From Prevotella sp. (lineage in GTDB: Bacteria; Bacteroidota; Bacteroidia; Bacteroidales; Bacteroidaceae): a stretch of 64,000 bases of DNA. Positions within the stretch are counted from its first letter, which is position 1. The number at the start of each line of letters is the position of its first letter. Shown piece after piece: positions 3,547 to 43,888 of the stretch. The DNA lies in NCBI GenBank assembly GCA_017470345.1, contig JAFUEP010000025.1, forward strand, positions 1 to 64,000, in the 5' to 3' direction. Under the pieces are notes generated by a model that worked only from the letters and a program-made list of their open reading frames with translations, was not told the origin of the DNA and did no database searches. The position numbers and the translations under genes are program-made.

Positions 3547-4581
3547 ATGGAATACGTAAAACTTGGAAACTCAGACCTCCATGTGTCGCGCATCTGCCTT
3601 GGCTGCATGGGCTTTGGCGACGCAACGATCGGGCAACATTCGTGGACCATCGGCGAGGAACCGACGCGCGAGATCATACGCCGCTCGCTCGACCTCGGCG
3701 TGAACTTCTTTGATACAGCCATTGCCTATCAGTTAGGCACTTCGGAACAGTTTGTAGGCCGTGCCCTGCGGGATATGGCCCGACGCGACGACGTGGTGGT
3801 GGCCACGAAGTTCCTGCCGCGCACGGACGAGGAGATCCGGCAGGGCATCGACGGCCGTCAGCATGTGATTGATAATATCAACAGCAGCCTGGAGCATCTC
3901 GGCATGAACTATGTCGATCTCTACATCTACCACATCTGGGACTACAAGACGCCCGCCGAGGAGATCCTGGAGGGCATGAACGAGGCGGTGCGCTCGGGCA
4001 AGGCTCGCTATATCGGCATCGCCAATGCCTACGCCTATCAGGTGGCGAAGATGAATGCGCTGGCCGAACAGCGCGGTTGGGCAAAGTTCATCAGCGTGCA
4101 GAACCACTACAACCTCATCATGCGCGAGGAGGAGCGCGAGATGTTCCCCTTCTGCCGTGAAGAGAACATTGCCATGACGCCCTACAGCGCGCTGGCATCA
4201 GGCAAGCTGGCCAAGCGCCCCGGCGAGACCTCGAAGCGTCAGCAGGAGGACTCGTTCATGCACTTCAAGTACGACAGCACCGCCGACGAGGACAACCGCA
4301 TCGTGGAGCGCGTCGTGGAGCTGGCCGACCGCTACGGCGTGGAGATGACGCAGATCGCGCTGGCCTGGCTCTTGACGAAGGTGGAGTCGCCCATCGTAGG
4401 AGCCACGAAGCTGCACCACATCGAGGGCGCCGTGAAGGCCCTCGACGTCCAGCTTTCGGCTGACGACATCCGCTATCTGGAGGAGCCCTACGTGCCGCAT
4501 CGTCTCTCCGGCGTGATGGCCGTGAACAAGCCCGTGATGGACGAGGAGCCCGTATGGGTTTCGGCAAGCAAGAACAAATAA
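3547..4581 (+). CDS. Aldo/keto reductase
   Basis: The 344-residue TIM-barrel oxidoreductase has the complete AKR catalytic tetrad: Asp56 and Tyr61 (FFDTAIAY), Lys88 (VVATKFLP) and His129 (DLYIYHIWD). The family reduces carbonyls with NADPH. NADP-binding features are seen late in the chain (ALASGKLAKRP, IVGATKLHHIEGAVKAL). There is no signal peptide, so it is cytosolic. It stands alone: upstream is a terminator and long leader, downstream the hairpin repeat and a convergent gene. The substrate is unknown. The nearby oxidative-stress genes may be coincidental. Confidence 0.9.
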   Translation: MEYVKLGNSDLHVSRICLGCMGFGDATIGQHSWTIGEEPTREIIRRSLDLGVNFFDTAIAYQLGTSEQFVGRALRDMARRDDVVVATKFLPRTDEEIRQGIDGRQHVIDNINSSLEHLGMNYVDLYIYHIWDYKTPAEEILEGMNEAVRSGKARYIGIANAYAYQVAKMNALAEQRGWAKFISVQNHYNLIMREEEREMFPFCREENIAMTPYSALASGKLAKRPGETSKRQQEDSFMHFKYDSTADEDNRIVERVVELADRYGVEMTQIALAWLLTKVESPIVGATKLHHIEGAVKALDVQLSADDIRYLEEPYVPHRLSGVMAVNKPVMDEEPVWVSASKNK

Positions 4582-7296: not shown

Positions 7297-9282
7297 CTAT
7301 ATTGCTTTCAGAATCCTGTAGACCCGCACATCCTTAGCGGGAATCATGATGGTGGCGTCGAGGCTGACGGGCTTGTGTTCCCAAAGTTCCTCGACGGTAT
7401 AGTTCGCCTCGGCGTCGAGCTCCATCAGCAGGCGGTCGAAGACGAACGGGCGTGGATTGTCGCCATAATTGAAAGCCGCAACGACGACGGTGCCGTCCGT
7501 CTCCTGACGGATGAAGGTCTGCTCCGAGCGATCATTGTCGCCCTGCAACGGACGGAACGAGTGGCCCGTGGCCAGACGGTTGATGTCGGGGTTGGTCAGG
7601 AAGAGGCGGGCGCGGCTGATGGCCATCGTGTCGGCTGAGAAGTCGTCGCCGGTGATGAAGAGTCCGGTGATGACGCTCGACGTGATGCGGGCTCGGTTCT
7701 CGCCCTCGGTGGCATCGCGCAGGACGACGTGGTCGGCGTCGTTATACTGATAGATGCGGTCGATCCACCATCCCCACGAGAGGGCGTTCATGGTGTACTC
7801 CGTGTCCTTGATCTTGTTCCAGGCGTCGCAGGCAATGCGTCGACTTTGGGCATACTGGGCGGGGAAGATGGGCGAAATGGAGAGGTTCAGATACATGTCC
7901 GAGAAGATGCTGTCGAGCAGATGCATGCCGTAGTTATAGGCCTCGGTGCCGGTCGTGATTTCTGAGCGATACCACCGGTCGGCCTCCATGCGGCCGTGGG
8001 TCATGAAGTCCATCTTGACATACTCATAGCCGCAACGGCGGAAGAGGTTGTGGGTCTGCTCCATCATGCGCTGCACAGCGGGGTGGGTCGGGTCGATGGC
8101 ATAGGCCCCGTCGAGCTCCTGCGGCTGTCCGTTGGCGTAGAGATAGATGTCTTTGTAGATGAGTCTCTTCCCAGTCTCTCCCGACTGTGACGGCAGGGGA
8201 GCCTCCGGATTCTTGCCCCAGTCGGTGAAGGGTGTCCAGTAGATGCAGGGCACTTGGTTGTTGCGTCGGCAGCGGTCGGCGAAATCCTTCAGGTCTTCCT
8301 CCGAAAAACTGTTCCAGCCCGAGTCGAGCCCCGTATAGAGCAGACCGTCGGCGTTGGCAAACGAACGGGGTTGCAGTTCGCGGGCGAAGAAATCTGAGAC
8401 GCGCGTGGAGTTGTCGTGGTTCACCTTGAAAGCCAGGGCGCCCCACGAGTTCCAACCGACGGGCATGGCCTTCTGCCACGGTCGCGGACGGGCCGTCGTG
8501 GCATTGGCGTCGGCAAAGGCTTCCATACCCTGTCGCCAGTCGGTGAACAGACCGATCATCATGCGGGCCGAACTGACGCGCTGGCCAGTGACGGCACCAT
8601 GGCTGAGACGGTCGCGGGTCAGCTGGTCGGCCACTCCGCTGAAAGCCCTCAGCCGACGTGCCCCGTCGGTCAGTTCGACGGCGTTCTTCCACCGGTCGTG
8701 GTCGATGGCGCCAATGATGAGGCCATGGCGATTGCGCGTGTCGTAGATGGACGTCACCTCATAGGACCGCAGTGTGTCGGCCCGCTCGGTGGTCGAACTG
8801 AAACGGATCCAGGCGTCGTTGTCGAAAGGCACGAAGATCCGACGCCTGTCCGGATTGCTGATGAGTGTATCGGTCTGTTCGACCACGATGGGGGCCATAT
8901 AGTTGGTGCTGACGCCTTCAGCCGACTGCAGGGCGATGTCGGTCAGCACGTATTGGTCATAGATGCTGAACGTCTGTGTCAGCGTGGGCAGCTTTTCGTC
9001 AGTGTAGGTGATGGTCCATCGCCGCCCTTGTCCGAAGTCGTCGCTGATGCGCTCCTGGCTGAACGAGCGATGGCCGTAGACAGAAGATCTGACGATGCGG
9101 TCGTCGAGCCGGTATTCGGCTTGCAGACCTTGGGCTATGCTGGTTGTGCCGTGGACGATGCTGACGCCACGGCCGCTGTAGGTGAGAGCCCATTGTCCTT
9201 GGGTGACGCGTTCGCTGCCGTGACACCCGCTCAGGACAATGGCGAGCAATGTGATAATAAGTGTCGTTCCTAATGATTTCAT
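7297..9282 (-). CDS. Clan GH-D glycoside hydrolase lipoprotein, alpha-galactosidase-like
   Basis: The start is ATG 9282, which gives a clean lipoprotein signal (MKSLGTTLIITLLAIVLSGC, lipid on Cys20); the frame is open 58 codons further upstream but without a signal peptide. The 661-residue protein is a paralog of the next gene: PVGWNSWG, TGLDSGWNS, YVKMDF (Asp425, predicted nucleophile) and RRIACDAWN (Asp486, predicted acid/base). It lacks the C-terminal tail of its neighbour. The lipid anchor suggests outer-membrane placement while the partner is free or sorted differently. The promoter region between it and the HTCS carries the shared ATGTCGCA motif. Confidence 0.75.
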   Translation of the reverse strand: MKSLGTTLIITLLAIVLSGCHGSERVTQGQWALTYSGRGVSIVHGTTSIAQGLQAEYRLDDRIVRSSVYGHRSFSQERISDDFGQGRRWTITYTDEKLPTLTQTFSIYDQYVLTDIALQSAEGVSTNYMAPIVVEQTDTLISNPDRRRIFVPFDNDAWIRFSSTTERADTLRSYEVTSIYDTRNRHGLIIGAIDHDRWKNAVELTDGARRLRAFSGVADQLTRDRLSHGAVTGQRVSSARMMIGLFTDWRQGMEAFADANATTARPRPWQKAMPVGWNSWGALAFKVNHDNSTRVSDFFARELQPRSFANADGLLYTGLDSGWNSFSEEDLKDFADRCRRNNQVPCIYWTPFTDWGKNPEAPLPSQSGETGKRLIYKDIYLYANGQPQELDGAYAIDPTHPAVQRMMEQTHNLFRRCGYEYVKMDFMTHGRMEADRWYRSEITTGTEAYNYGMHLLDSIFSDMYLNLSISPIFPAQYAQSRRIACDAWNKIKDTEYTMNALSWGWWIDRIYQYNDADHVVLRDATEGENRARITSSVITGLFITGDDFSADTMAISRARLFLTNPDINRLATGHSFRPLQGDNDRSEQTFIRQETDGTVVVAAFNYGDNPRPFVFDRLLMELDAEANYTVEELWEHKPVSLDATIMIPAKDVRVYRILKAI

Positions 9283-29529: not shown

Positions 29530-32085
29530 ATGAAACGTTTTCAACAGAAAATTACTCGCTGGTCAGCGCCACTCCTCGGAGTGTTGCTCATGGGAGGACT
29601 CGCCGCTTCGTGCTCGAAGGACTATGCATACGAGGAGCGTGAACCCGATTTCCTCGGTGCGAGCATATACGACTACCTGAAGGCGGAGGGCGGCTTCACT
29701 AACTATCTGCGACTGGTCGACGACCTGAACTACGGGCGTGTGTTGCAGCTGACAGGCTCGAAGACCGTCTTTCCTGCCCGCGACGAGGCATGGCAGCGCT
29801 TCTTTCAGGGGCAGAATCCCTACGGCGTCCACGCTTATGAGGAGCTGACCGCTGCCCAGAAGCGTTGCCTGCTCAATGCCAGCACCGTCAACATGGCCTA
29901 TCTGGCCTATATGCTGGCCAACACGGGCGACGCCGAGAGCCAGAGCGGCGAGGGCACAGCCGTGAGGCGTGCCACTCAGTATACCTATTTGGACAGTATC
30001 CAGTTCTGTCAGGACAGCCGCCAGTTTGAAGCACCCTTCTGGAAAAAATACCAAAACACGGGCGGCCTGCGGCTGGTAGACGACGAGAGCGACACCTACA
30101 TGGTTCACTTTACACCACAGCACACGGCGGCCAACAAGATTCCGACGGACGACCTCTCGCTGGTGCTCGGTCAGGACTACGACCCGCTGGGACTCTACAT
30201 CAACGGCTCGCACGTCGACAAGCAGGACGTGACCTGCAAGAACGGCTACGTCCACGTGATGCACGACGTGCTGACGCCCCTGCAGCCGATGAGCCAGGTC
30301 ATCGCCCGCGAGCCTCAGATGAGCCTGTTCGCCCGGCTGATGGAACGCTTCAGCGCTCCATATTATAACAGCACGGTGACCGACGCCGTCCACCATCTCT
30401 ACGACGGCACCGACGCCACGCGCCCCCTCATCAGCGACTCCGTCTTCACCAAACATTACTTCACCGAGACACGACCGCACGACCCCGACGGCAACGACAT
30501 GACCAACTACGGACTCCTCTACTTCGACCCCTCGCAGAACAGCTACGGCGGACTGCAGGACATGGGCGTCATGTTCGTACCCACCGACGAGGCCATGCAG
30601 CAGTATATCAACGGCGGCAAAGGCTCTTACCTGAAAGATGCCTATGGCGATTGGGACAACGTGCCGACGCCGCTCGTGGCCCTCTTCGTGAAGAACCATC
30701 AAAAGAAGTCGTTCATGACCTCGCTGCCCTCGATGTGGCCGACGATGAACGACGAGTCGTCGTTTGCCATGCACGTCGACCGAAACGATGTCGTCGCTTC
30801 CTACGTCGCCGGCAACGGCGTGGTCTATATGACCAATAAGGTCTATCCACCCATCGACTATCAGAGCGTCTATGCCTCGGTGATGACCAATGCCGGGACG
30901 CGCATCATGAACTGGGCCCTGCAGGACCGCGAGATGAAGTTCTATCTCTACCTGCGCTCCATGGAGAACATGTATAACCTGCTGGTGCCCACCGACGAAG
31001 CCCTGCAGAACTACCGCGACCCCGTCAGTTGGGCCAAGGGCAAGACGCAGCGCGAGATCTGGGCATTCAAGTATGACGAGACGCGCGACAATCCCGTGAC
31101 GGCCGATGTCTTCAGCGTCAACGACGACGGCACCCGGGGCGAACTGCTGCGCACCATCGACGACCAGTCGCTGTTGCGCAACCGCCTCTATGACATCTGC
31201 GACCGCCATATCATCGTCGGCACCAAGGACGACGAAGGCCGCATGGGCGGCTACGTCGACGACGGCACGCGCCACTACTATCAGTCGAAGGGTGGCTCCA
31301 CGATTCGAGTCGAGGGGGTAGGGCAGCAGATGATGGCTCAGGGCGGAGGCGACATGGAGCAAAACGTGCCGCAGGCTCGCCAGGTGAGTCGCTACGATGC
31401 CGACAATGGCCGTTGCTACATCATCGACCGCATCCTGCAAGACCCAACCAACTCGGTTTACACCAACTTGCAGCAACATCCCGAGTTCTCCAGGTTCTTC
31501 GAACTCCTGAATGGCAACGACATGGTGTTCCGGATGTTTGAGAACGACCCGGAAATCAAGAGCATATTTACACTTAACCGCACGTCGCAGTCGAGCGGAC
31601 TGGGCAATGTGGTCTCCTCGTTCGGCAATTTCCAATACACCGTGCTCGTGCCAACGAATGAGGCTGTCGACGAGGCCTTCCGCAACGATCCGTCGCTTCA
31701 TACGTGGGACGAGATTGCCGCTCAGATGGATAACCCCACCTTGCAGCGCAGTTGGTCAGTCAGGCTGATGCGCTTCCTGCAGTATCACTTTGTCGATAAT
31801 TCTACCTACGTTGACGACCAGCCATTCCCGGCTCTGACTTACGAGACGGCCGCCCGCACGGATGCCGGCCGATTCCAGAAGCTCACCGTCAGCGGCGACG
31901 GACAGAACCTGACCTTCACCGACGGGCATGGCCACGAGGCCCATGTGGTGAAGACGCCCGGCCTATACAACCTGCAGAGCCGCGACTTCATCGTCAACTC
32001 GAGCGACTACCGCACAGCCACACAGATCGTCTCGTCGTCGCAATCTGTCATTCATCTCATTGATTGTGCCTTAATCCCAGAATAA
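29530..32085 (+). CDS. Multi-domain FAS1 (fasciclin) lipoprotein
   Basis: The 851-residue lipoprotein (LGVLLMGGLAASC, lipid Cys28) is built from about four FAS1-like units. These are seen as repeated blocks of a helix, then a strand with F-x-P-T/A-D/N-E-A: VFPARDEAWQRFF (~80), VMFVPTDEAMQQY (~347), NLLVPTDEALQNY (~485), TVLVPTNEAVDEAF (~706). FAS1 domains usually mediate adhesion or ligand contact. As first gene of the SusC/D operon, 4 bp before SusC, it is probably a surface glycan-binding lipoprotein in place of SusE/SusF. No classical SusE/F-like gene is present. The binding target is unknown. Confidence 0.82.
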   Translation: MKRFQQKITRWSAPLLGVLLMGGLAASCSKDYAYEEREPDFLGASIYDYLKAEGGFTNYLRLVDDLNYGRVLQLTGSKTVFPARDEAWQRFFQGQNPYGVHAYEELTAAQKRCLLNASTVNMAYLAYMLANTGDAESQSGEGTAVRRATQYTYLDSIQFCQDSRQFEAPFWKKYQNTGGLRLVDDESDTYMVHFTPQHTAANKIPTDDLSLVLGQDYDPLGLYINGSHVDKQDVTCKNGYVHVMHDVLTPLQPMSQVIAREPQMSLFARLMERFSAPYYNSTVTDAVHHLYDGTDATRPLISDSVFTKHYFTETRPHDPDGNDMTNYGLLYFDPSQNSYGGLQDMGVMFVPTDEAMQQYINGGKGSYLKDAYGDWDNVPTPLVALFVKNHQKKSFMTSLPSMWPTMNDESSFAMHVDRNDVVASYVAGNGVVYMTNKVYPPIDYQSVYASVMTNAGTRIMNWALQDREMKFYLYLRSMENMYNLLVPTDEALQNYRDPVSWAKGKTQREIWAFKYDETRDNPVTADVFSVNDDGTRGELLRTIDDQSLLRNRLYDICDRHIIVGTKDDEGRMGGYVDDGTRHYYQSKGGSTIRVEGVGQQMMAQGGGDMEQNVPQARQVSRYDADNGRCYIIDRILQDPTNSVYTNLQQHPEFSRFFELLNGNDMVFRMFENDPEIKSIFTLNRTSQSSGLGNVVSSFGNFQYTVLVPTNEAVDEAFRNDPSLHTWDEIAAQMDNPTLQRSWSVRLMRFLQYHFVDNSTYVDDQPFPALTYETAARTDAGRFQKLTVSGDGQNLTFTDGHGHEAHVVKTPGLYNLQSRDFIVNSSDYRTATQIVSSSQSVIHLIDCALIPE

Positions 32086-32089
32086 GCCA

Positions 32090-35000
32090 ATGAAACGTCT
32101 TCTATTCATTCTCCTCTGTTCACTATTCATAAGCGGCCTGTCCGCGCAGACGATGATTACCGGTCATGTCACGTCACCCGACGGTGAGTGCATCGGCGCC
32201 AGCGTCGTCGAGCAGGACAAGACGGGGCGCATCGTCTCGTCGGCTGTCACCGATTACAATGGCGACTTCTCGCTGCAGGTGAAGAACACCGACAACACGC
32301 TGAAGATTTCTTACGTTGGCTGTCGGGCGCAGACCCTGCCCATCCGCGAACGCCGCCGCTTCGTCGTCCAGCTGAAGGACAACTCGCAGGCCATCGCCGA
32401 GGTCCAGGTGCGAGGTAAGCGCCGCACTGGCGATTCGGGATTCAACGTTCCCGTTCGTGAGCTCTCAGGAGCTCAGCAGACCATCTCGATGAAAGCCTTC
32501 GAGGGCATGTCCGTAGCTTCGGTCGACGATGCCCTGCAGGGCCGCATCGCCGGTCTCGACATCGTGGCCAACTCGGGCGACCTGGGCTCAGGCTCGTCAC
32601 TCCGCGTTCGTGGCACCACGTCGATCAACTCCAACTCCGAACCGCTCATCCTGCTCAACGACATCCCCTTTGACTCGCAGATCGATGCCTCGTTCGACTA
32701 CAACACGGCCTCGAACGACCAGTTTGCCACACTGCTGAACATCTCACCCGAGGACATCGAGGAAATCACCGTGCTCAAGGACGGCGCCGCCTGTGCCATC
32801 TGGGGCGCCCGCGGTGCCAACGGCATCATCTCGATCAAAACGAAGAAAGGCGTCACGGGCCCCACACGTGTCACCTACAGCTACCGCCTCTCGGGCAACT
32901 GGCAGCCGCGCGGCATGAAGATGCTCAATGGCGACGACTACACGATGCTCATGAAGCAGGCATACTTCAACCGCAACATGGACGAGCAGGAGTCAGACAT
33001 CCCCGAGTTCAACTATGACCCGAACTTCTCGGAGTATGAACAGTATAACAACAACACCGACTGGGTGAAGGAGGTCTCGCAGATGGGCTGGACCCACGAC
33101 CACTCGCTCTCCATCAGCGGCGGTGGACAGAAGGCGCGTTTCCGCGCCTCGCTGGGCTACTACAACCAGACGGGCACCGTCATTGAGCAACGCCTGGACC
33201 GCTTCTCCACCCGCATGAATCTGGAGTATCAGGTGTCCGATCGGCTGAAGTTCACCAGCGACTTCTCAATGACCTACACCAACAACGATCGCAACTACGA
33301 GCAGTATTACCCCTCGACGGGCTCGAACATCGGACTGCTTGACGTGGCCTACCGTAAGTTGCCCAACGTGGGCATCTACCGTCAGGACGTCGACGGCCGC
33401 GACACCGATGTCTATTATAACATCCTGCCCTCGTCGGCCCTGAATTCCTCGCAGAAGGATCTCCTCAACCCCGTGGCCGTGGCCCATCTGGCCGAGAACG
33501 TGCAGAAGAACATGCGCATCATTCCCACGCTACGGCTGCAATACGACTTCATCGAGCCCACCGACCTGCAGCGCCTGCGCTACAACGGCTACGTGACGTT
33601 CGACATCGAGAACTATAAGATCAACCGCTTCCTGCCGAAGAAGATTGTGCCGAGATCGTGGCTCGATGAATACGTCAACCGTAGCGAGGAACAAGAGAAC
33701 GAGGGCCTCTCCGTCATGACCGACCACAACCTGACGTGGATGCCCAACCTCGGCGAGGATCATTCGCTGATGCTCTACGGCTCATGGCAGATGATCAGCG
33801 GCTCGTCGCAGAACCAGCGCTTCACCACCCACGGTTCACCCTCAGAGAGCATCACTGACGCCTCGGCCGGCGCCAACCTGCGCGACCTGAACTCCGAGCA
33901 GGGCCAATGGCGCTCGATGGCCGTTCTGGGCCGCATGCACTATGCTTTTCAGGGCCGCTACATCCTCGACGCCACCATCCGCTGGGATGGAAGTACACGT
34001 TTCGGAACAGGCAACCGTTGGGGCATGTTCCCTTCCGTCTCGGGCAAGTGGATCATCTCCGACGAGCGGTTCATGAAGTCATTCGAGTCGTGGCTCTCCG
34101 AATTCTCGCTCCGTGCCGGCTGGGGCGTCACTGGCAATATGCCTGACCGCGAATACCTCTATTTCGCCCGCTACAACGGCTCATGGTCGACGGGCGCCAG
34201 CAGCTATCTGGGCACGCCGACCATCAAGCCCTCGTCGGTGAAGCTGACAAACCTGAAGTGGGAGCGCTCCACGAGCATCAACGTGGGTCTGAACCTCGGA
34301 CTCTTCGACGACCGATTCACGGCCGACCTCAACGTCTATCACCGTCGCACGGACGACATGCTCTTCCGAGATATGCGCATTCCCTCGTCAAGTGGCTTCA
34401 CCCAGCTGAGCTACATCAATGCCGGCACGATGGACAACGACGGCTGGGAACTCAACATGAACACCACCAACCTGATTTCGTTCGGCCGCTTCGTGCTCGA
34501 CCTGAACGCCAACTTCTCTAACTACAAGAACACTATCATCGCCCTCGACCCGAACGTGCTCGATTCCTACAACGGCGACTTCAACTACTCCAATGGCAAC
34601 TACCTGAGCCGCGTCCAGATCGACAACTCCTTCGGCTCCATCTATGGCCTGCGTTCACGGGGCGTCTATCAGTACGACAGGTACAGCGCCACCGAGGTGA
34701 CGGGCGTCAGCGGCCCCAATGCTCCCGTGGCCCGCGACAAGGATGGCGCCGTCGTCTTCGACAGCTTCGGCGAGCCGGTGCCCCTTTACTATGCTTACGG
34801 CACTACCAATGCACGCCGGTTCCGCGGGGGCGACGCCGTTTACGAGGACATCAACAGCGACGGCACCATCGACGAGCTCGACGTGGTCTACCTTGGCAAC
34901 TGTAATCCCAAACTGAACGGCGGTTTCGGTTTCTCGCTGCGCTATAACAAGCGACTGTCGCTCAACTGCTTCTTCAACTTCCGCTACGGCAACAAGGTCA

Positions 35001-35398: not shown

Positions 35399-35432
35399 AG
35401 CCCACCCCTAACTCCTCTCGAAGGGAAGAAAG

Positions 35433-35603
35433 CCCACCCCTAAACCCTCCCCAAAGGAGGGGAATTGAGAATAGACTTGTTATAAATAATAAGGAATATA
35501 TATGATGAAGTATCAATTAAGAATAAAAAAACAGACGAGAGCTGTAATGGCATGGCTCATGACTATCCTTGTTCCCCTCCCTTGGGGATGGGTAGGGGGT
35601 GGG
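35433..35603 (+). repeat. 170-bp signal-peptide element, copy 1
   Basis: Left arm 35433-35464 (CCCACCCCTAAACCCTCCCC...) is near the reverse complement of right arm 35572-35603 (...GGGTAGGGGGTGGG). The inner part is AT-rich and contains TTGTTATAAATAATAAGGAA just before ATGATG (35502). The reading frame that starts inside leaves through the right arm, encoding PLPWGWVGGG of the SusD signal peptide. Each arm is itself hairpin-forming (CCCTCCCC/GGAGGGG). A degenerate extra left arm precedes it at 35401-35432. Confidence 0.9.
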
Positions 35604-37115
35604 CTGATCTTTACCTCCTGTTCCGACTTCTTCGACATTAAGCCGCAGACCGAGCTGGTCAGCGACGACTTCTGGCAGTCGAAGAGCGACGTCGAGAGTG
35701 CCGTCAGCGCCTGCTACCGCGCTATGCAGGAGCCCGACGTCATGGAGCGGCTCATCGCCTGGGGCGAGATGCGCTCCGACAACGTGCTGCTCGGCCAGAA
35801 CTATAACGACAATGTCTACTACATCCTGACGGCCAACGTTGACGCTGACAACGGCTATGCTCAGTGGGGACCCTTATATCAGGTCATCAACTATTGTAAC
35901 ACGGTGCTCAGTCAGATGCCTGCCGTCCAGCGGAAAGACCCCAACTTCACGGCGGGCGAACTGCGGGCCTACGAGGCTGAGATGAAGACGCTGCGCGCAC
36001 TGTGCTATTTCTATCTGGTGCGCACGTTCCGCGACGTACCCTTCACCACTGAGGCCTATAGCGACGACACCCGCCCCTTCCAGTTGCCACAGACCGACGG
36101 CGACGAGATTCTGGATCGGTTGCTTTCTGAACTGGAGCAAATCCAGGACAACTTCGCTAAGGCCGTCTATTCCACCACCGCCGCCACCAAGGGGCGCATC
36201 ACGCAGAAAACTCTCTGGACGCTGATGGCCGACATCAACCTCTGGCTGGGTCGCTACGACTGCACCGTCGACCTCTGCCGCCGCGTGCTGCAGACGTCGA
36301 CCAATCCCCTGCAGCTCGAGTCGTCGGCCCGCTACAACCAGCAGGTCTTCGGGCAGGGACAGTCGCAGGAGTCAATCTTTGAGCTGGTCTTCGACAGCTA
36401 TACGCCCAACTACGTCGTCAACGAGATGTATGGCCAGACGGGAGGTCGCAGCAGCGTCAACCAGCTGTCGGCCCTCGACTGGCGCAACTATCCGCTCTTC
36501 GACGGCAGCGACGTGCGACAGCACGACTTCGTGTTCCGCAACACGGGTGGCGCTTTCATCCCCATCCGTAAGTTCGTCGCCTACCGACGCGAAAGCTCCA
36601 GCTCGCAGGTCGTCGCCTCCGACTACGTCGTCAATCAGAACACGCAGCCATGGATCATCTATCGTCTGGCCGATGTCTATCTGATGATGGCCGAGGCACT
36701 CGTCGAGCGCGCTGCCGACGGCGACCTGGCTGAGGCCATCCGTATGGTGGGCTACACCTACGACCGCGCCAACCCTTCGCGCGGCACGGGGTCACTCTCA
36801 CTGGCCAGCTACAACTCGCAGGAACTGATGCGCAACCTCGTCTTCGATGAGCGCCAGCGTGAGTTCATGTTCGAGGGCAAGCGCTACTTCGACCTGCTGC
36901 GCCGCATCCGACACACCGACGACCTCGCCGGCATCGTCTCGACCTATCTGCTCCGCAAGTACGAGAGTCTCGACCAGGCCACCGTGCTTACCCGCCTGAA
37001 CACCCTCAACGCCCTTTACATGCCCATCCATCGCGACGAGATGAAGGTTAACAAACTGCTGAAGCAGAATCCCTTCTACGACACCTCGGGCGATGTGGAG
37101 AAGGCCCACCCCTAA
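35502..37115 (+). CDS. SusD/RagB family glycan-binding lipoprotein (first copy)
   Basis: The 537-residue SusD-like protein partners the first SusC. Mature-protein features are SDFFDIKPQTELVSDDFWQS, LIAWGEMRSDNVLLGQNYND and the TPR-like helices, ending in FVFDERQREFMFEGKRYFDLLR and YMPIHRDEM. The lipobox Cys is residue 40; the first ~34 residues are encoded by the repeat element, with the right arm giving VPLPWGWVGGG. The stop TAA (37113-37115) lies within the left arm of the next element, so the last residues AHP are also element-derived. Confidence 0.95.
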   Translation: MMKYQLRIKKQTRAVMAWLMTILVPLPWGWVGGGLIFTSCSDFFDIKPQTELVSDDFWQSKSDVESAVSACYRAMQEPDVMERLIAWGEMRSDNVLLGQNYNDNVYYILTANVDADNGYAQWGPLYQVINYCNTVLSQMPAVQRKDPNFTAGELRAYEAEMKTLRALCYFYLVRTFRDVPFTTEAYSDDTRPFQLPQTDGDEILDRLLSELEQIQDNFAKAVYSTTAATKGRITQKTLWTLMADINLWLGRYDCTVDLCRRVLQTSTNPLQLESSARYNQQVFGQGQSQESIFELVFDSYTPNYVVNEMYGQTGGRSSVNQLSALDWRNYPLFDGSDVRQHDFVFRNTGGAFIPIRKFVAYRRESSSSQVVASDYVVNQNTQPWIIYRLADVYLMMAEALVERAADGDLAEAIRMVGYTYDRANPSRGTGSLSLASYNSQELMRNLVFDERQREFMFEGKRYFDLLRRIRHTDDLAGIVSTYLLRKYESLDQATVLTRLNTLNALYMPIHRDEMKVNKLLKQNPFYDTSGDVEKAHP

Positions 37116-37274
37116 CCCCTCCCCAAGGGAGGGGAATGAGAATAGACCTGTTATAAATAATAAGGAATATATATGATGAAGTATCAATTTAGAATAAAGA
37201 GACAAGCGAAAGCAGCGATGGTATGGCTCATGACTATCCTATCCCCCCTCCCTTGGGGAGGGGTAGGGGGTGGG
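37105..37274 (+). repeat. 170-bp signal-peptide element, copy 2
   Basis: Left arm from 37105 (CCCACCCCTAACCCCTCCCC...) and right arm ending 37274 (...GGGGTAGGGGGTGGG) are inverted repeats of ~31 bp. The left arm carries the SusD stop codon; the interior carries ATGATG (37173) of the next FAS1 gene; the right arm encodes SPLPWGGVGGG. It is nearly identical to copies 1 and 3 over its whole length. Confidence 0.9.
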
Positions 37275-39059
37275 CTGTTCTTTGCCTCCTGCGATAGCGA
37301 CTCGCTCGAGGGCGATAGCTACTACACCTTCACGGGCGAGACCGTGGCCAGCTACGTCGAGAACCGCCCCGACTCGTTCAGCGTCTTCAGCCAGATCGTC
37401 AAGGACGCCGGCGAGGAGGCACTGCTTTCCACCTACGGTCACTACACCGCCTTCATCCCTACTGATGAGGCCTTCTCTGACTTCTTCCGTGAGCACAGCA
37501 CATCGCTGGAACAGCTGTCCGCTGACGAGAAGCGCAACATCGTTTATAACCATATCATCCGCTCGACGGCCATCGACTACCTGACGAAGGACTTTACTGA
37601 GGGTGCCCTCGGCACGTCGAACATGAACAACCGATACATCATCATCTCCTACGTTCCCAACGATCAGGGACGCAATTCGATCCTGATCAATAAGATGTCG
37701 GAAATCATACGGCCCGACATTGAGCTGCACAACGGCGTGGTGCACGTCGTCGACCACGTCCTCGTGCCCAGCGACGAGACCCTCGGTGCCCTGCTCAATC
37801 AGATGCCCGACTACTCCATCTTCGCCGAGGCCCTGCGGATGACCCACCTCAACGACTCGATCCTGGAGACCTACGACATGACCTATCAGAATCCCTATAC
37901 CACCGAGTTCGTCAACATCCTCGGCTACACGATGAAGCCCCTGCAGCAGCGTCGGCTCGGCTATACGATGTTCGTTGAGCCCAACAGCGTCATGCAGCAG
38001 GCCGGAATCAGCACGGTCAGCGACCTGACGACCTATGCCCAGCGCTATTACGGCACTGAGGATGCCGCCGACCCCACCAGCCGCCGCAATGCCCTGAACC
38101 GTTTCATCTCCTACCACATGCTCAACCGTCAGATGTCGACCAACGCCTTCGTCTACTCGGGCCCCAGCACGTCAAGCTACTACATGGACAAACGTTACGA
38201 ATACTATGAGACGATGCTTCAATATCGGCTTATCGAGTTCCGTGCCGGCAACCGCCTGAACATGTGCCGGAACGGTGCCTACGTGGGCGTCGACGAGAGC
38301 CGGTCGAACATTGACGGGGCTAACGGCTTCATCCATTCGCTGACCGACATGCTTGTCTATGATGAGCAGGTGATGCAGCAGGACGTGCTCAACAAGCGCA
38401 TCCGATTTGATGCCTATGCCATCCCCCCGCAGCTCACTAATAATAATATAAGATGGAAGCTCAACAATCTCGACGGCTTCGGAGGTTTCACCATGAGCCC
38501 CGACTACTGTGGCGACTACTTCCGATTCAACGACGCCTCGAAGTTCATCATGTGGTCGTCGGACTATTGGACCAACTACCAGAGCGACGAAATTTCAGTC
38601 CGTGGCTGGTACGACGTCACCGTGCGCATGCTGCCCGTGCCCCCCGGCACTTATGAGATCCGCCTCGGCTATTCGGCCCGTTCGTGGGGCGGCATCGCCC
38701 AGCTCTTTGTCGACGGTCAGATCATCGGTATCCCCGTCTCGTTCAACTACACTGGCGAGCAGCCTCAGATAGGCTGGGTCAGCGACGAACAGACCACCGA
38801 CAACGGCGCCGAGAACGACAAGATGATGCGCAACCGTGGCTACATGAAAGGGCCCAACTCGGTCTACGCCATCAACGGACAGAAGACGTTGCGCCAGAAC
38901 GTCGGGTCGCTGCGCTTCATCGTCGGCACTTTCACCTTCCAGGACTACGCTCCCCACTACTTCCGCGTGAAGAATATCGAGTCGGAGCTTGGCGAGTTCC
39001 ATTTCGACTATTTGGAGTATGTGCCTGTGAGCCTGATCGACTCGGAGGATAAGGATTAA
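37173..39059 (+). CDS. FAS1 (fasciclin) lipoprotein, second
   Basis: The 628-residue lipoprotein has lipobox FFASC with Cys40. Two FAS1-like units follow: the first around 55-205 (FSVFSQIVKDAGEEALLSTY, TAFIPTDEAFSDFF, NGVVHVVDHVLVPSDETL), the second around 210-430 (IFAEALRMTHLNDSIL, YTMFVEPNSVMQQAG, ANGFIHSLTDMLVYD). A beta-rich C-terminal domain (~430-628) ends it. The N-terminal ~34 residues come from the repeat element. It probably binds glycan at the surface next to SusC/SusD; no catalytic residues are recognised. Confidence 0.8.
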   Translation: MMKYQFRIKRQAKAAMVWLMTILSPLPWGGVGGGLFFASCDSDSLEGDSYYTFTGETVASYVENRPDSFSVFSQIVKDAGEEALLSTYGHYTAFIPTDEAFSDFFREHSTSLEQLSADEKRNIVYNHIIRSTAIDYLTKDFTEGALGTSNMNNRYIIISYVPNDQGRNSILINKMSEIIRPDIELHNGVVHVVDHVLVPSDETLGALLNQMPDYSIFAEALRMTHLNDSILETYDMTYQNPYTTEFVNILGYTMKPLQQRRLGYTMFVEPNSVMQQAGISTVSDLTTYAQRYYGTEDAADPTSRRNALNRFISYHMLNRQMSTNAFVYSGPSTSSYYMDKRYEYYETMLQYRLIEFRAGNRLNMCRNGAYVGVDESRSNIDGANGFIHSLTDMLVYDEQVMQQDVLNKRIRFDAYAIPPQLTNNNIRWKLNNLDGFGGFTMSPDYCGDYFRFNDASKFIMWSSDYWTNYQSDEISVRGWYDVTVRMLPVPPGTYEIRLGYSARSWGGIAQLFVDGQIIGIPVSFNYTGEQPQIGWVSDEQTTDNGAENDKMMRNRGYMKGPNSVYAINGQKTLRQNVGSLRFIVGTFTFQDYAPHYFRVKNIESELGEFHFDYLEYVPVSLIDSEDKD

Positions 39060-39060
39060 G

Positions 39061-39230
39061 CCCACCCCTAACCCCTCCCCAAAGGAGGGGAATGAGAATA
39101 GACTTGTTATAAATAATAAGGGATATATATGATGAAGTATCAATTGAGAATAAAGAGACAGACGAGAGCGGTAATGACATGTCTCATGACTATCTTATCT
39201 CCCCTCCCTTGGGGAGGGGTAGGGGGTGGG
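39061..39230 (+). repeat. 170-bp signal-peptide element, copy 3
   Basis: It starts 2 bp after the TAA of the preceding FAS1 gene with CCCACCCCTAACCCCTCCCC and ends at 39230 with GGGGTAGGGGGTGGG. The interior includes ATGATG (39129). The right arm again encodes SPLPWGGVGGG, with the lipobox just outside. Confidence 0.9.
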
Positions 39231-40751
39231 TTCCTCTTCACTGCCTGCTCTGACTGGACTGACCATTATGAGGATGGTCCTGCGACGGGCGAGGGGCTGA
39301 GCGTGATGCAACTGCTCGAACAGGACAGCCGCACGGCCTCGTTTGCCGCCCAGGTACGACAGGCGGGCTATGCCGACCTGCTCGCTTCGAGCCAGGCGCT
39401 GACCGTATTTGCCCCCACGCAAGGCCTGGACGGCAGCGACGTCGGCCGTATGGTGGCTAACCATATCGCCCGCCACACCTATCCCACCTCGACGCCTCTC
39501 ACCGTCGGTGTCGAGATGCTCAACGGCAAGATCTATCAGTTTGATGCCGACGGGGGCTTTGCCGGTACAGGCATCACCCTGGCCAACCAGAAAGCCGACA
39601 ACGGACTGGTGCACCAGCTGCAGACGCCGATCCCCTACGTCAACAACCTCTATGAGCACATCGCGATGCGTCCGGATCTGTCGGAGCTCTATCGCTTCAT
39701 TCATCAGTTCGACGAGGTGAAGTTCGATGTCGAAAACTCTGTCGAGGTCGACATTGACGAGCAGGGCCGCCCCGTCTACGACTCCGTCTTCGTCAGTTAT
39801 AACCGTCTGCTCGAAGATCCCGTCTACGGACTGGGCCACATCGCTCGAGAGGATTCGACGTACAACATGCTGCTGCCCACGAACGAAGCCTGGCAGCAGG
39901 CTTATGAGCGCATCGCACCCTCATTCCGCGTCTACGATGCCGACGACGCTGTGGCCGACTCGCTGCAGGACCTTCGCACCCGTCTGGCCATTGTCGAGAA
40001 CCTGGTCTATAGGGCCGCCGTCGCCGGTGCTGACTCGGCTGTCTCCACCGCGGGCAGCATCATCAGTGCGCCCGACCGACTGCTGGCCGGTTCGACTGCA
40101 TTGTCCGCAAGCAACGGCATGGCATGGCTTTGTCCGACGCTCAACTATGACCGCTGCGAGACCTGGAACAAACCCATCGTCGTCGAGGCCGAGCAGCAGA
40201 ATGGCCGGACGTATAACAACACGCTTACTTCGGTCTATCAGCGCTCGCTCACATCCAGTAGTCTTATAGAGGGCGTCAGCGGCGAAGCCTTTATTGAGGT
40301 GATGCCAATCTCTACGTCGACCAACCCCACAGTCATCTTCGACATCCCCGGCGTGCTGGCTGGTACCTATGATGTCTATTGTGTGTTCCTGCCTGCCACG
40401 GTCGAAGGTCCGACGGAGGAACCCGACTCGACGAAGGTCAACTTCACGCTGACCTTTCAGAACGCTAACGGGCGCACTGCGACTAAGCGTCCCTCGGCTG
40501 CCGAGGCCCGTGAACTCATCACCAGCGGCACGGAGGTGACACGCATGCTGGCCTTGAGCCATGTTGAGATACCGGTCAGCAACACCACTGACCGGCTCTG
40601 GCTGACCAGCGAGACCAACGACCCCACCACGCTCCAGACAACCACCTCGCTGACCATCACCACCAACGTGACGGCTCGCGAATTCTCGTCGGGCACCTAC
40701 GCGCGTTTGTTCCGTCTCGACCGCATCATCTTCGAACCTGTTAAGAATTAA
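39129..40751 (+). CDS. FAS1 (fasciclin) lipoprotein, third
   Basis: The 540-residue lipoprotein (lipobox LFTAC, Cys40) has a shortened first FAS1 unit (SVMQLLEQDSRTASFAAQVR, LTVFAPTQGLDGSD, NGLVHQLQTPIPYVNNLYEH). A second unit follows (DLSELYRFIHQFDE, NMLLPTNEAWQQAYERI) and then a C-terminal beta-sandwich-like domain with Thr/Ser-rich strands. The signal peptide is donated by element copy 3. It is 8 bp before the second SusC, so the order FAS1-SusC-SusD repeats that at the operon start. Confidence 0.78.
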   Translation: MMKYQLRIKRQTRAVMTCLMTILSPLPWGGVGGGFLFTACSDWTDHYEDGPATGEGLSVMQLLEQDSRTASFAAQVRQAGYADLLASSQALTVFAPTQGLDGSDVGRMVANHIARHTYPTSTPLTVGVEMLNGKIYQFDADGGFAGTGITLANQKADNGLVHQLQTPIPYVNNLYEHIAMRPDLSELYRFIHQFDEVKFDVENSVEVDIDEQGRPVYDSVFVSYNRLLEDPVYGLGHIAREDSTYNMLLPTNEAWQQAYERIAPSFRVYDADDAVADSLQDLRTRLAIVENLVYRAAVAGADSAVSTAGSIISAPDRLLAGSTALSASNGMAWLCPTLNYDRCETWNKPIVVEAEQQNGRTYNNTLTSVYQRSLTSSSLIEGVSGEAFIEVMPISTSTNPTVIFDIPGVLAGTYDVYCVFLPATVEGPTEEPDSTKVNFTLTFQNANGRTATKRPSAAEARELITSGTEVTRMLALSHVEIPVSNTTDRLWLTSETNDPTTLQTTTSLTITTNVTAREFSSGTYARLFRLDRIIFEPVKN

Positions 40752-40759
40752 GCAAGGCT

Positions 40760-43700
40760 ATGAACATACGAACATTCATTACGACTATATCCGCTGTCGC
40801 ATCTTTTCTGGCAGCTACGGCTCAAACTGACGTCAAGGGTGTGGTAGTCAACAGCTCCACGGGTGAGCCCTTCGCTGGTGCACGTGTCACCGTCGTGGGC
40901 AGCCGCACCACGTCGATGACCGGAGACGACGGTGTCTTCACACTCGCCGTCGCAGACGATGTCGACGCATTGCTTCGCATTGAGGCACCAGGCTTCGACG
41001 CTCAGTTGCTGCCTTTGCGCGGACTCCATGAGGTTCATGTCCGGCTGCTTCCTTCAGGCACGGCTGAAGTCACCTACGACGACTATGCACACAGTGCCAG
41101 CTCTGCTGCCGTCACCACGAAGAAGCGCCCTGCCACGGTGGCTACCGACGAGAATGTTGCCATGCTGCTCGCCGGCGACCTTTGGGCCCAGAGCCATAGC
41201 GGACTTGACGCCGGCGGACACGCTTTCTTCGTCCGAGGTCTTCATTCGCTCAATATGCAGTCGCAGCCCCTCTTCGTGGTCGACGGCCAGATATGGCAGT
41301 CGCAACTCCCCTCCCTCGGAGGGGGCGGGGAAGGCATTTCCCTCCATGAAGGCTATTTCACCAATCCACTGGCCCTGCTCTCGCCTGACGACATTGAGCG
41401 CATCGAGGTGCTCAAGAACGGCACGGCCATCTGGGGCGCCAAGGCCGCCGGCGGCGTGATCCTCATCACGACGAAGCGCAGCCGCAACATGGCCACGGAG
41501 ATTGAGGTGAACCTCTCGGCCGGCATCCGTCAGCAGGGCCGGTCGCTGCCGATGCTCGGCGCTGCCGACTATCGCATCTTGGCTTCCGATCTGTTCCCCT
41601 CCCTTGGGTCGGGATTAGGGGTAGGCTTCCTCAATGACGATGCCAACACAACTTTCTACAGAGCCAACCACAACGAGACCGACTGGCAGTCTGTCGTCGG
41701 CCGCACATCGGCCTCGCAGAACTACGGCATCGCCGTACGTGGTGGTGACGACGTGGCCCTCTATGCCTTCTCTTTAGGCTATGCCCGAGGCGATGGGATG
41801 TTGCGCGGGACTGACTTCGACCGTCTGAATCTACGCTTCAACAGCGACATCGAACTGACGAAGCGCCTGAAGACACGTGCTGACATCGCCTTCGCTCAGG
41901 TGACACGCAACATCTTCGACGACGGCATCTTTTCAGAGACATCGCCCCGCTACATGGGCTATGTGAAGTCACCACTCTACAATGCCCGTCAGTTCGACAC
42001 GCAGGGCCGCCTGTTTGATCGTCTCAGCGACGTCGACGAGCTGGGCGTAGGCAATCCGATGGCCATCATCGAGAACGCTGAGGGCAAGACGAAGAACTAT
42101 CGCTTCACGGCCTTGCTCGCCCCTACCTACCTCTTCAGCGACCGACTGTCGCTCTCGGCCCTCGTCGCCCATTCGTGGGACAAGATCAAGGAGAGCGCCT
42201 TCATCCCGGACTTCGGACTGCCCGAGACGGAGCTGCTCAACGCTCAGGGCGACTGGTACGGCACTGCCCGGAACAGCGTCAGTTCGCTCATGACCCGCCA
42301 CTCGACGCTCACACTCGATCTGCATGCCGACTGGAACATCCTCAATCATCAATTCTCAATCCTCAATCTGACAGCCGGTCTGCGCTATCTCAATGACACC
42401 TTTGAGGGCGACTATGGGCAGGGCTATAACACTGGCTCGGACAACCTGCGTTCGCTTTCCGTCACCACTTCGTCGCTCCGCACTACCGACGGCACGAACG
42501 ACGACCGTCGGTCGGTGTCTTGGTATGCCCAGGCTGACTATAGCCTGAAGAATCGCTATCTGCTCACCGCATCGTTGGCGCTCGAGACCAACAGCCGGTT
42601 TGGCAGCGAAGCCGACGGCTCACTGAGGATCGGAGGTGTCGCGTGGGCCCTCTTCCCGTCGGTCGATGCCGCATGGATTGTCACGGGTGAGCGCTTCATG
42701 CGCCATGCCTCGGGCATCAACTACCTGAAGCTCCACGTGGGCTATGACCTGACGGGCAACGATGACCTCCCGGCCGGCGCCACGCGCACCTACTTTGGGT
42801 CCATCGGCTATGCCGGACTGGCCAAAGGCCTGGCGATGGAGAACGTGGGCAATGACAATCTGAAATGGGAACGCACCGGCACACTGACCGCCGGCATCGA
42901 TATGCGCCTGCTCAGCAACCGGCTCACGGTCAGGGCCGACTACTTCCGTTCTGTGACCGACGACCTGCTCATGCGCAAGCAGTTGCCTGCGGACTATGGA
43001 CTCCAGAGCTATTGGACCAACGACGGCCGGCTGCAGAACGAAGGCTTCGAGGTCAGCCTCAGCGGCCGGCTTATCGACCGTCGCCACTGGCAGATGAACG
43101 CCCATCTGAGCGTAGGGCATTATAAGAACGAGGTGAAGCGACTGACCGACGGCGACTTCACCACCGACGTGCTCGGTGCCCGCGTGCTGACCAGCGTGGG
43201 CCGACCGCTCGGCGTCTTCTATGGCTTTCGCACAGTCGGCGTCTTCGCAGACCAGCAGGAGACCGACCGCGCCAATTTGGGCACCATCGACGCCACAGGC
43301 CGGCGTCAGGCCTTCGCTGCCGGCGACATCCACTTTGCCGACCTCCGTGCCGACGGCATCATCGACGAGCAGGACATGGACGTCATCGGCGACCCGACCC
43401 CCGACATCTACGGGTCTTTTGGCTTCGACCTGACATGGAAGGGACTGACGTTCGACGCCCTCTTCACCTATTCCTTAGGCAACGACGCCTACAACGCCCT
43501 GCGCCAGCGGCTGGAGAGCGGCTCGTCGCTGAGCAACCAAACCGAGTCGCTGCTGCGCCGATGGACCGCCGACGGACAAGTGACCGATATGCCAAGGGCT
43601 GTCTATGGCGACCCGATGGGCAACAGCCGTTTCAGCGACCGCTGGATTGAGGACGCCTCCTACATGAAGCTCCGTCAGTTGAGTCTCAGTTACGATCTGC

Positions 43701-43888
43701 CCATTCGGCCGCGCCTGATTCAGGGTTTGCAGCTTTGGGCTTCGGTCGAGAATCTCTTCACCCTGACGCGCTATCTGGGTGCTGACCCGGAGTTCAGCTA
43801 CGCCACGTCGATCCTCACGCAGGGCATCGACGCCGGCCTGATGCCCCAGAGCCGCAGTTATCATTTTGGTGTAAAACTTAACCTCTAA
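40760..43888 (+). CDS. SusC/RagA family TonB-dependent receptor (second copy)
   Basis: The 1042-residue receptor has a signal peptide, a carboxypeptidase-regulatory-like domain (TDVKGVVVNSSTGEPFAGAR), a plug (GGHAFFVRGLHSLNMQSQPL, SPDDIERIEVLKNGTAIWG) and a barrel ending RSYHFGVKLNL. Two Gly/Pro-rich stretches, SQLPSLGGGGEG (~182-193) and LFPSLGSGLGVGF (~278-290), are encoded by DNA resembling the arms of the 170-bp element and look like in-frame insertions compared with the first SusC. It partners the SusD 6 bp downstream. Confidence 0.95.
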   Translation: MNIRTFITTISAVASFLAATAQTDVKGVVVNSSTGEPFAGARVTVVGSRTTSMTGDDGVFTLAVADDVDALLRIEAPGFDAQLLPLRGLHEVHVRLLPSGTAEVTYDDYAHSASSAAVTTKKRPATVATDENVAMLLAGDLWAQSHSGLDAGGHAFFVRGLHSLNMQSQPLFVVDGQIWQSQLPSLGGGGEGISLHEGYFTNPLALLSPDDIERIEVLKNGTAIWGAKAAGGVILITTKRSRNMATEIEVNLSAGIRQQGRSLPMLGAADYRILASDLFPSLGSGLGVGFLNDDANTTFYRANHNETDWQSVVGRTSASQNYGIAVRGGDDVALYAFSLGYARGDGMLRGTDFDRLNLRFNSDIELTKRLKTRADIAFAQVTRNIFDDGIFSETSPRYMGYVKSPLYNARQFDTQGRLFDRLSDVDELGVGNPMAIIENAEGKTKNYRFTALLAPTYLFSDRLSLSALVAHSWDKIKESAFIPDFGLPETELLNAQGDWYGTARNSVSSLMTRHSTLTLDLHADWNILNHQFSILNLTAGLRYLNDTFEGDYGQGYNTGSDNLRSLSVTTSSLRTTDGTNDDRRSVSWYAQADYSLKNRYLLTASLALETNSRFGSEADGSLRIGGVAWALFPSVDAAWIVTGERFMRHASGINYLKLHVGYDLTGNDDLPAGATRTYFGSIGYAGLAKGLAMENVGNDNLKWERTGTLTAGIDMRLLSNRLTVRADYFRSVTDDLLMRKQLPADYGLQSYWTNDGRLQNEGFEVSLSGRLIDRRHWQMNAHLSVGHYKNEVKRLTDGDFTTDVLGARVLTSVGRPLGVFYGFRTVGVFADQQETDRANLGTIDATGRRQAFAAGDIHFADLRADGIIDEQDMDVIGDPTPDIYGSFGFDLTWKGLTFDALFTYSLGNDAYNALRQRLESGSSLSNQTESLLRRWTADGQVTDMPRAVYGDPMGNSRFSDRWIEDASYMKLRQLSLSYDLPIRPRLIQGLQLWASVENLFTLTRYLGADPEFSYATSILTQGIDAGLMPQSRSYHFGVKLNL
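41306..41334 (+). repeat. Arm-like palindromic insertion in SusC (first)
   Basis: CTCCCCTCCCTCGGAGGGGG followed by CGGGGAAGG resembles an arm of the 170-bp element and is hairpin-forming. It is in frame in the plug region and encodes LPSLGGGGEG. A related GC-rich hairpin lies at 62524-62575. Confidence 0.55.
41594..41625 (+). repeat. Arm-like insertion in SusC (second)
   Basis: TTCCCCTCCCTTGGGTCGGG continuing ATTAGGGGTAGG matches the right-arm sequence of the 170-bp element closely (about 26 of 31 positions by eye). It is in frame and encodes LFPSLGSGLGVG. Confidence 0.65.

Follow-up and report, generated by a model that had tools for sequence, protein, structure and literature searches.

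How do three neighbouring genes that encode unrelated proteins come to begin with the same DNA? The question is raised by a 64,000-nucleotide stretch of a Prevotella sp. genome (positions 1 to 64,000 of contig JAFUEP010000025.1, assembly GCA_017470345.1; hereafter the window), which lies on contig C16 of the genome we label G000 (2.67 Mb, 61.6% complete). Its gene run reads FAS1, SusC, SusD, FAS1, FAS1, SusC, SusD, and at three successive junctions lie near-identical ~170-bp copies of an element with inverted ends, at exactly the coordinates that an earlier note on this sequence had given. That note took the element for a portable module supplying start codons and lipoprotein signal peptides. 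We conclude, with a probability of roughly 0.7, that the copies represent an exchangeable leader cassette whose two ends are inverted repetitive extragenic palindromic (REP) sequences of a Prevotella-group family, and that it has spread chiefly by recombination or gene conversion.

Details of the element are given in Table 1. Compared with copy 2 over their whole length, copy 3 is 91% identical (E 2.6e-64) and copy 1 is 89% identical (E 2.7e-58); all three are direct repeats of one another, and a search of the 61.6% complete genome returned the full-length element at these sites only. Each copy has inverted ends of about 30 bp (the earlier note had counted ~31), an internal ATGATG and, as that note had read it, a frame that stays open through the right arm to a cysteine at residue 40 (codons 35619-35621 in the SusD gene, 37290-37292 in the first FAS1 gene and 39246-39248 in the second). 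Between right arm and cysteine there is no in-frame ATG, GTG or TTG in the window genes: the leader is therefore required if these proteins are lipoproteins. At the other end of the element the preceding gene's stop codon falls within the left arm at copy 2 and immediately ahead of it at copy 3. Gene duplication as the origin of the common N-termini is ruled out, as the note had also argued, because the hosts are SusD on the one hand and FAS1 on the other; the mature parts of the two FAS1 proteins themselves have no likeness detectable by BLAST (E 1.5, 61 aa).

Table 1. Cassette copies, REP arms and host genes in the window.
Feature	Coordinates	Strand	Remarks	Basis
Cassette copy 1	35433..35603	+	SusC-SusD junction	sequence and genome search
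Left REP arm, copy 1	35433..35462	+		
Right REP arm, copy 1	35574..35603	-	in-frame reading PLPWGWVGGG	
Cassette copy 2	37105..37274	+	SusD-FAS1 junction	sequence and genome search
Left REP arm, copy 2	37105..37134	+		
Right REP arm, copy 2	37245..37274	-	in-frame reading PLPWGGVGGG	
Cassette copy 3	39061..39230	+	FAS1-FAS1 junction	sequence and genome search
Left REP arm, copy 3	39061..39090	+		
Right REP arm, copy 3	39201..39230	-	in-frame reading PLPWGGVGGG	
SusD-family lipoprotein gene	35502..37115	+	residues 1-39 cassette-derived, Cys40; stop inside copy 2 left arm	
FAS1 lipoprotein gene	37173..39059	+	Cys40	
Second FAS1 lipoprotein gene	39129..40751	+	Cys40	
Extra degenerate REP arm	35401..35430	+	between SusC stop and copy 1; the sister genome has the same	
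Solitary degenerate REP	41596..41625	-	in-frame reading FPSLGSGLGVG, within the next TonB receptor gene (40760-43888)	

The history of the locus is best seen in its relatives. A sister genome, RUG12472 (CACZBS010000001.1, L032), has the three elements too, at matching junctions; its mature proteins are 97-99.7% identical, and the three copies are thus not an assembly accident. Six relatives (L033, L034, L035 Xylanibacter brevis, L036 Marseilla, L040 Hallella and L041) carry the orthologous operon with mature identities of 52-93%, other leaders and REP-free junctions. Since the sister has the cassettes and the six relatives have other leaders, it follows that replacement of the resident leaders took place in the lineage shared by G000 and its sister. 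The two genomes also record a leader replacement within that lineage: cassette 2 has 15 differences between them in 110 interior columns, against 8 in the first 900 nt of the mature gene, and the sister's cassette 2 is only 2-3 differences away from cassette 1. These alignments would most simply mean that one lineage's leader was recently replaced by a copy from the neighbouring gene. Beyond the sister (G320), a search of 60 other relatives found no full element; the arm alone was found, in G023. A separate observation concerns L033 and L041, in which the hydrophobic parts of several signal peptides are built from simple DNA repeats (TTCATTCTTCATTC, CACTTATCACTTATC), another route by which repeats enter signal peptides.

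What are the inverted ends? They are not private to the window element: with up to three mismatches allowed, the arm is matched 39 times in G000 (7 matches falling within the window) and 91 times in G196, a genome of another species, while the reversed control pattern returned 1 and 3. The arm is a short palindrome with an asymmetric tail, present in many copies, that is, a REP. A comparison of inner flanks showed that the DNA directly inside both arms (GAG..T..GATAG..) is part of the repeat, so that the consensus comprises tail and inner flank as well; a division of the element into a separate promoter block and signal-peptide block was accordingly withdrawn, both being largely extended REP inner flank. 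Within this flank TAGACTTG resembles a Bacteroidetes -7 box and might have promoter activity.

Classing the 123 REP places (32 in G000 outside the window and 91 in G196) put 71 wholly within open reading frames (ORFs), 51 in intergenic DNA and 1 across a gene end; several intergenic REPs of G196 lie 0-7 nt downstream of stop codons. Palindromic DNA of this family is translated in frame within unrelated genes, as is evident from alignments to solved structures. MiaB, whose gene holds a REP pair, aligns to PDB 7mjv on either side of a REP-peptide insert, IspF has an 11-residue REP insert relative to PDB 5b8f, and the DnaG alignment likewise continues on both sides of its insert. By NCBIfam, hosts of in-frame REPs include LigA, Mfd, MetH, FtsY, UvrA, RecG, TrpB and TrpE (the UvrA, MetH and TrpE matches being below curated cut-offs, as expected of interrupted or partial proteins). 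G196 has in-frame REPs in several replication and repair homologs: RecG, LigA, Mfd (two sites), DnaG and UvrA (L216, L218, L221, L238, L240). REP peptides are found at ispF in two species: the insert in G000 (L139:3011-3184) is near the N terminus, and in G196 (L260:2968-2994) the peptide stands immediately ahead of the IspF-like start, fused to the upstream ORF. At L129:3023-3163 a REP pair spans trpB-trpE; the C-terminus of trpB is a REP peptide, and trpE starts between the arms, its frame continuing through the other arm.

Against this background of dispersed copies, those near gene starts stand out by position, frame and encoded residues. In G196, 15 of 48 in-ORF REPs fall within the first 37 codons; an even spread along the same ORFs predicts 2.8, and none of 200,000 simulations gave as many. 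The corresponding figure for G000 outside the window is 6 of 23 with 1.9 expected (p 0.009). One reading frame accounts for 17 of the 21 start-proximal copies (13 in G196, 4 in G000) versus 20 of 50 elsewhere (p 0.002), and 11 of the 13 G196 copies in that frame have a cysteine no more than eight residues past the arm. Of the frames in the family consensus, only this one, IL-x-PLPWGGVGGG, lacks charged residues. Two results that the earlier note had named as fatal to its view, orthologs with the same N-terminal DNA and no repeat ends, and genome-wide copies without bias to gene starts or frame, were thus not what we found.

The residues tell a similar story. In G000 and G196, to which this statistic is limited because the wider search pattern fixes the middle base of the codon as T, Val occupies the variable codon of the frame in 18 of 20 copies of the signal-peptide type, the window contributing three, and in 1 of 20 internal same-frame copies (p 6e-8), most of which have Ala, Glu or Asp there; when related copies are merged by hand the figures are 15/16 and 1/13 (p 3e-6). 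At the second arm residue, Pro, 8 of 20 signal-peptide copies have Thr or Leu instead; none of the 20 internal copies does. Both biases are the pattern expected from selection for a hydrophobic translated peptide, and such selection probably underlies the choice of frame and residues.

To what extent does the architecture recur, in which an upstream stop is followed by a left REP, a start, some 23 codons, a right REP that encodes PLPWGGVGGG, and a lipobox? Leaving aside the sister's three, we assembled 43 elements from 11 genomes of this genus, drawing on the complete sets of G000 and G196 and on 20 regions chosen by eye from the list of genus matches. Seventeen of these regions gave 26 readings (L319, L321 and L322 gave none), of which 22, with 20-28 codons from start to arm, were kept; the four dropped were three opposite-strand readings and one protein (G337 L320) with no cysteine nearby. 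L126, whose arm has more mismatches, is among the 43 and stands outside the counts of REP places, Val and position or frame. The start lies 23 codons ahead of the arm in 31 of the 43, a left arm with up to five mismatches lies 121-159 nt upstream in 32, and a cysteine follows the arm within eight residues in 41. Where there is an upstream ORF, its stop is at -7 to +11 nt from the left arm in 26 of 31 cases. As judged on sequence, the 43 leaders have the basic n-region, hydrophobic stretch and lipobox cysteine of a lipoprotein signal, and export and lipidation of the proteins that they lead are predicted. Hosts comprise 23 SusD and 11 FAS1 proteins, one TolC-like protein, one S41 peptidase, one FKBP and six without assignment (four hosts, L134, L244, L315 and L318, were assigned through nearest relatives instead of a Pfam scan). 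Two paralogous small lipoproteins with no Pfam match share one REP-pair leader in G000 (L133 and L134, on C47 and C43), and L122 and L317 (G268) encode related proteins with REP leaders.

A pattern of the signal-peptide type matches 24 of 398 genomes of the genus, a figure that includes CAA-type look-alikes that are not signal peptides, and a wide distribution was rejected: of 399 genomes of the family, G000 alone has a match to the stricter pattern. The window's own 170-bp sequence occurs in this operon and in the sister genome only; in the other genomes diverged or different leaders are found in the same frame.

It is possible to see the paired arms as an RNA device that pairs in the mRNA around the start codon and controls translation or decay, with the coding capacity of the right arm incidental. 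Copy 2 folds as a single long hairpin closed by a stem of 29 bp (-82.4 kcal/mol, z -7.95, equalled by 0 of 200 shuffles), and the left arm is located at the stop codon of the gene upstream. However, any inverted REP pair would fold likewise, the left arm is poor or missing in 11 of the 43 elements, and the residue biases of the right arm fit selection on coding. Nor is there support for pairing maintained by compensating changes: left arms match the right arm's departures from consensus in only 9 of 46 cases. We consider this explanation highly improbable.

Evidence of exchange between genes comes from the leaders themselves, compared over their first 45 nt with the REP excluded. In G152 consecutive SusD, FAS1 and FAS1 genes have one common leader, unlike that of the window, with identities of 0.96-0.98. 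Other same-operon pairs reach 0.73-0.84 in G152, G124 and G336 and 0.67 in G196. Among non-homologous genes at different loci the mean leader identity is 46% versus 37% in 41 REP-free control signal peptides; 29 of 606 leader pairs exceed 0.672 versus 1 of 694 control pairs (permutation p 0.0002), and 20 of 314 pairs from different Pfam families and different loci do so.

These figures bear on the possibility that REPs inserted independently behind stop codons and in tolerant signal peptides, leaders being alike through the common demands on signal peptides. That REP pairs can arise around resident sequence is clear from those flanking the native starts of cytosolic ispF, of trpB-trpE and of a UDG-like gene, and the intergenic REPs that follow stop codons in G196 point the same way. 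Yet the near-identical SusD and FAS1 leader DNA in G000, G152 and G124 contradicts such a process, which also gives no account of the excess over the control signal peptides or of the sister's replaced leader. As an explanation of the shared leaders it is improbable; it may well describe the origin of the first cassette.

A transposing unit is the remaining alternative: the whole ~170 bp would be a REP doublet, or an element akin to a miniature inverted-repeat transposable element (MITE), that inserts, leader included, at the starts of genes and is moved in trans by a REP-associated tyrosine transposase (RAYT) or other transposase. The window copies do have the terminal inverted repeats of MITEs, as two inverted REPs at fairly constant spacing with tails outward; similar leaders turn up on unrelated genes that lie far apart or belong to different genomes, and REP pairs are inserted in housekeeping genes such as miaB as well. 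But no common direct repeat, the mark of target-site duplication, was found by eye in the DNA that borders the three window copies. With the left arm set directly against the upstream stop and no trace of an older leader, the sites look like replacement of a resident leader and not simple insertion. RAYT-type genes are present at 13 loci in seven of nine REP-rich genomes, and a REP of the arm family lies near only 2 of the 13 (1-3 kb searched, draft genomes). G000 has a single Y1 match, to part of the domain, and it falls within an MmeI-like gene. We therefore regard transposition of the unit as unlikely. That gene (L140, G000:C35, ~31873-32097) is a curiosity of its own: a 1202-aa frame with MmeI-type methyltransferase domains, inside which the partial Y1 domain (IS200-like/RAYT) lies in frame, bordered by repeated peptides of the GDVSHVAT / CDVRHVAS kind. 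The notion of a portable module thus stood in part: leader, start codon and lipoprotein signal do recur on unrelated genes in 11 genomes, although the arms have many other contexts and simple insertion is unlikely.

Taken together, the data favor an exchangeable cassette. In it the left REP abuts the upstream gene's stop codon; the cassette provides the 5′ untranslated region, the start codon, and the basic n-region and hydrophobic h-region of a predicted signal peptide; and the right REP, read in its charge-free frame, makes up the second half of that peptide as its h-region, ending a few residues before the lipobox cysteine. Paired REPs would give homology on both sides, allowing recombination to swap start codon and signal peptide in one step. 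Spread would then occur by recombination or gene conversion among REP-flanked leaders, mostly of SusD and FAS1 genes, with the resident leader replaced. Homologous recombination is accordingly the probable vehicle, though several observations weigh against this account. L033 has a REP-free 109-nt leader, 86% identical, that is common to its SusD gene (4322-4430) and its second FAS1 gene (7786-7894), which means that leaders can be copied without REP ends (as assembled, the SusD copy of this leader has its ATG in a different frame from the SusD ORF). Eleven of the 43 elements have a poor or absent left arm. In G178 leaders within one operon are only 0.58 identical, a value close to the 99th percentile of the controls (0.557), and the 42 leaders include near-duplicates (L225 of G196 is identical to L318 of G232, and L315 of G178 almost identical to L316 of G023), so that the 606 pairs are not independent. 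The Val excess is weaker when set against intergenic copies (18/20 versus 26/51, p 0.0025). Finally, 22 of the 43 elements were obtained through the signal-peptide pattern and choice by eye, so that their placement is no blind sample, and gene calls come from a home-made codon model applied to draft genomes.

A bolder reading may also be entertained, namely that these are members of a mobile export-cassette family: a Prevotella-group REP pair would bring with it a whole leader, sufficient for expression and lipidation, and would exchange the leader of a gene at a single stroke. Mature proteins of unrelated kinds could in this way gain or trade a signal for surface export, between operons and between species, and the REP inner flank might add promoter activity. 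We put this forward tentatively, as possible and somewhat doubtful.

How does the cassette compare with known systems? REP doublets known as REPINs are inverted REP pairs with stems inward and tails outward, and the cassette ends are arranged in the same manner; a difference is that no cognate RAYT could be tied to the arm family, 2 of the 13 RAYT loci having one of its REPs nearby. Variable surface lipoproteins of Mycoplasma and other bacteria have conserved 5′ leaders that are exchanged by recombination, such that one leader serves different mature proteins. The window copies differ from that system in being direct repeats, and no inversion or silent-copy system was seen. A literature search covering titles and abstract openings of open-licence papers returned no palindromic element that gives a start codon plus lipoprotein signal and is exchanged between unrelated genes.

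Rickettsia palindromic elements (RPEs), according to the sections of a review on which we draw, are palindromes of ~150 bp found in frame within unrelated genes and encoding a conserved peptide (PMC10969869). The likeness is one of behaviour, palindromes becoming parts of proteins, and the cassette is set beside RPEs by description. Its ends are REPs of another lineage, the unit gives a start codon and lipoprotein signal, and its leaders are common to several genes; the terms 'signal peptide' and 'start codon' are absent from the examined text of that review. Intragenic REPs of the GTAG and CGTC families (Opitutus terrae, Rickettsia conorii, Thauera), in the parts of the source consulted, lie within ORFs singly or paired, many in replication and repair genes and some N-terminal or supplying stop codons (PMC3733652). 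The UvrA, Mfd, LigA, DnaG and RecG homologs among the G196 hosts agree with this. Many N-terminal REPs are viewed there as possibly outside the true gene; in the cassette the lipobox lies downstream of the REP. 'Prevotella' has no occurrence in the main text of that paper. On the best reading, then, the cassette is RPE-like in behaviour and new in its role, the supply of a start codon and lipoprotein signal.

REP sequences are usually thought selfish. Here, in some Prevotella-like bacteria, one appears to have become an interchangeable export tag on genes for unrelated surface proteins: a concrete case in which a repeated palindrome now seems to serve as a protein component that different genes can share for one task, export. 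The case suggests that a signal peptide can evolve by being replaced as a whole. Moreover, the frame in which the REP is read and the residues that it encodes vary with the kind of host protein, which brings the old question of whether coding palindromes are put to use or only tolerated within reach of a direct test.

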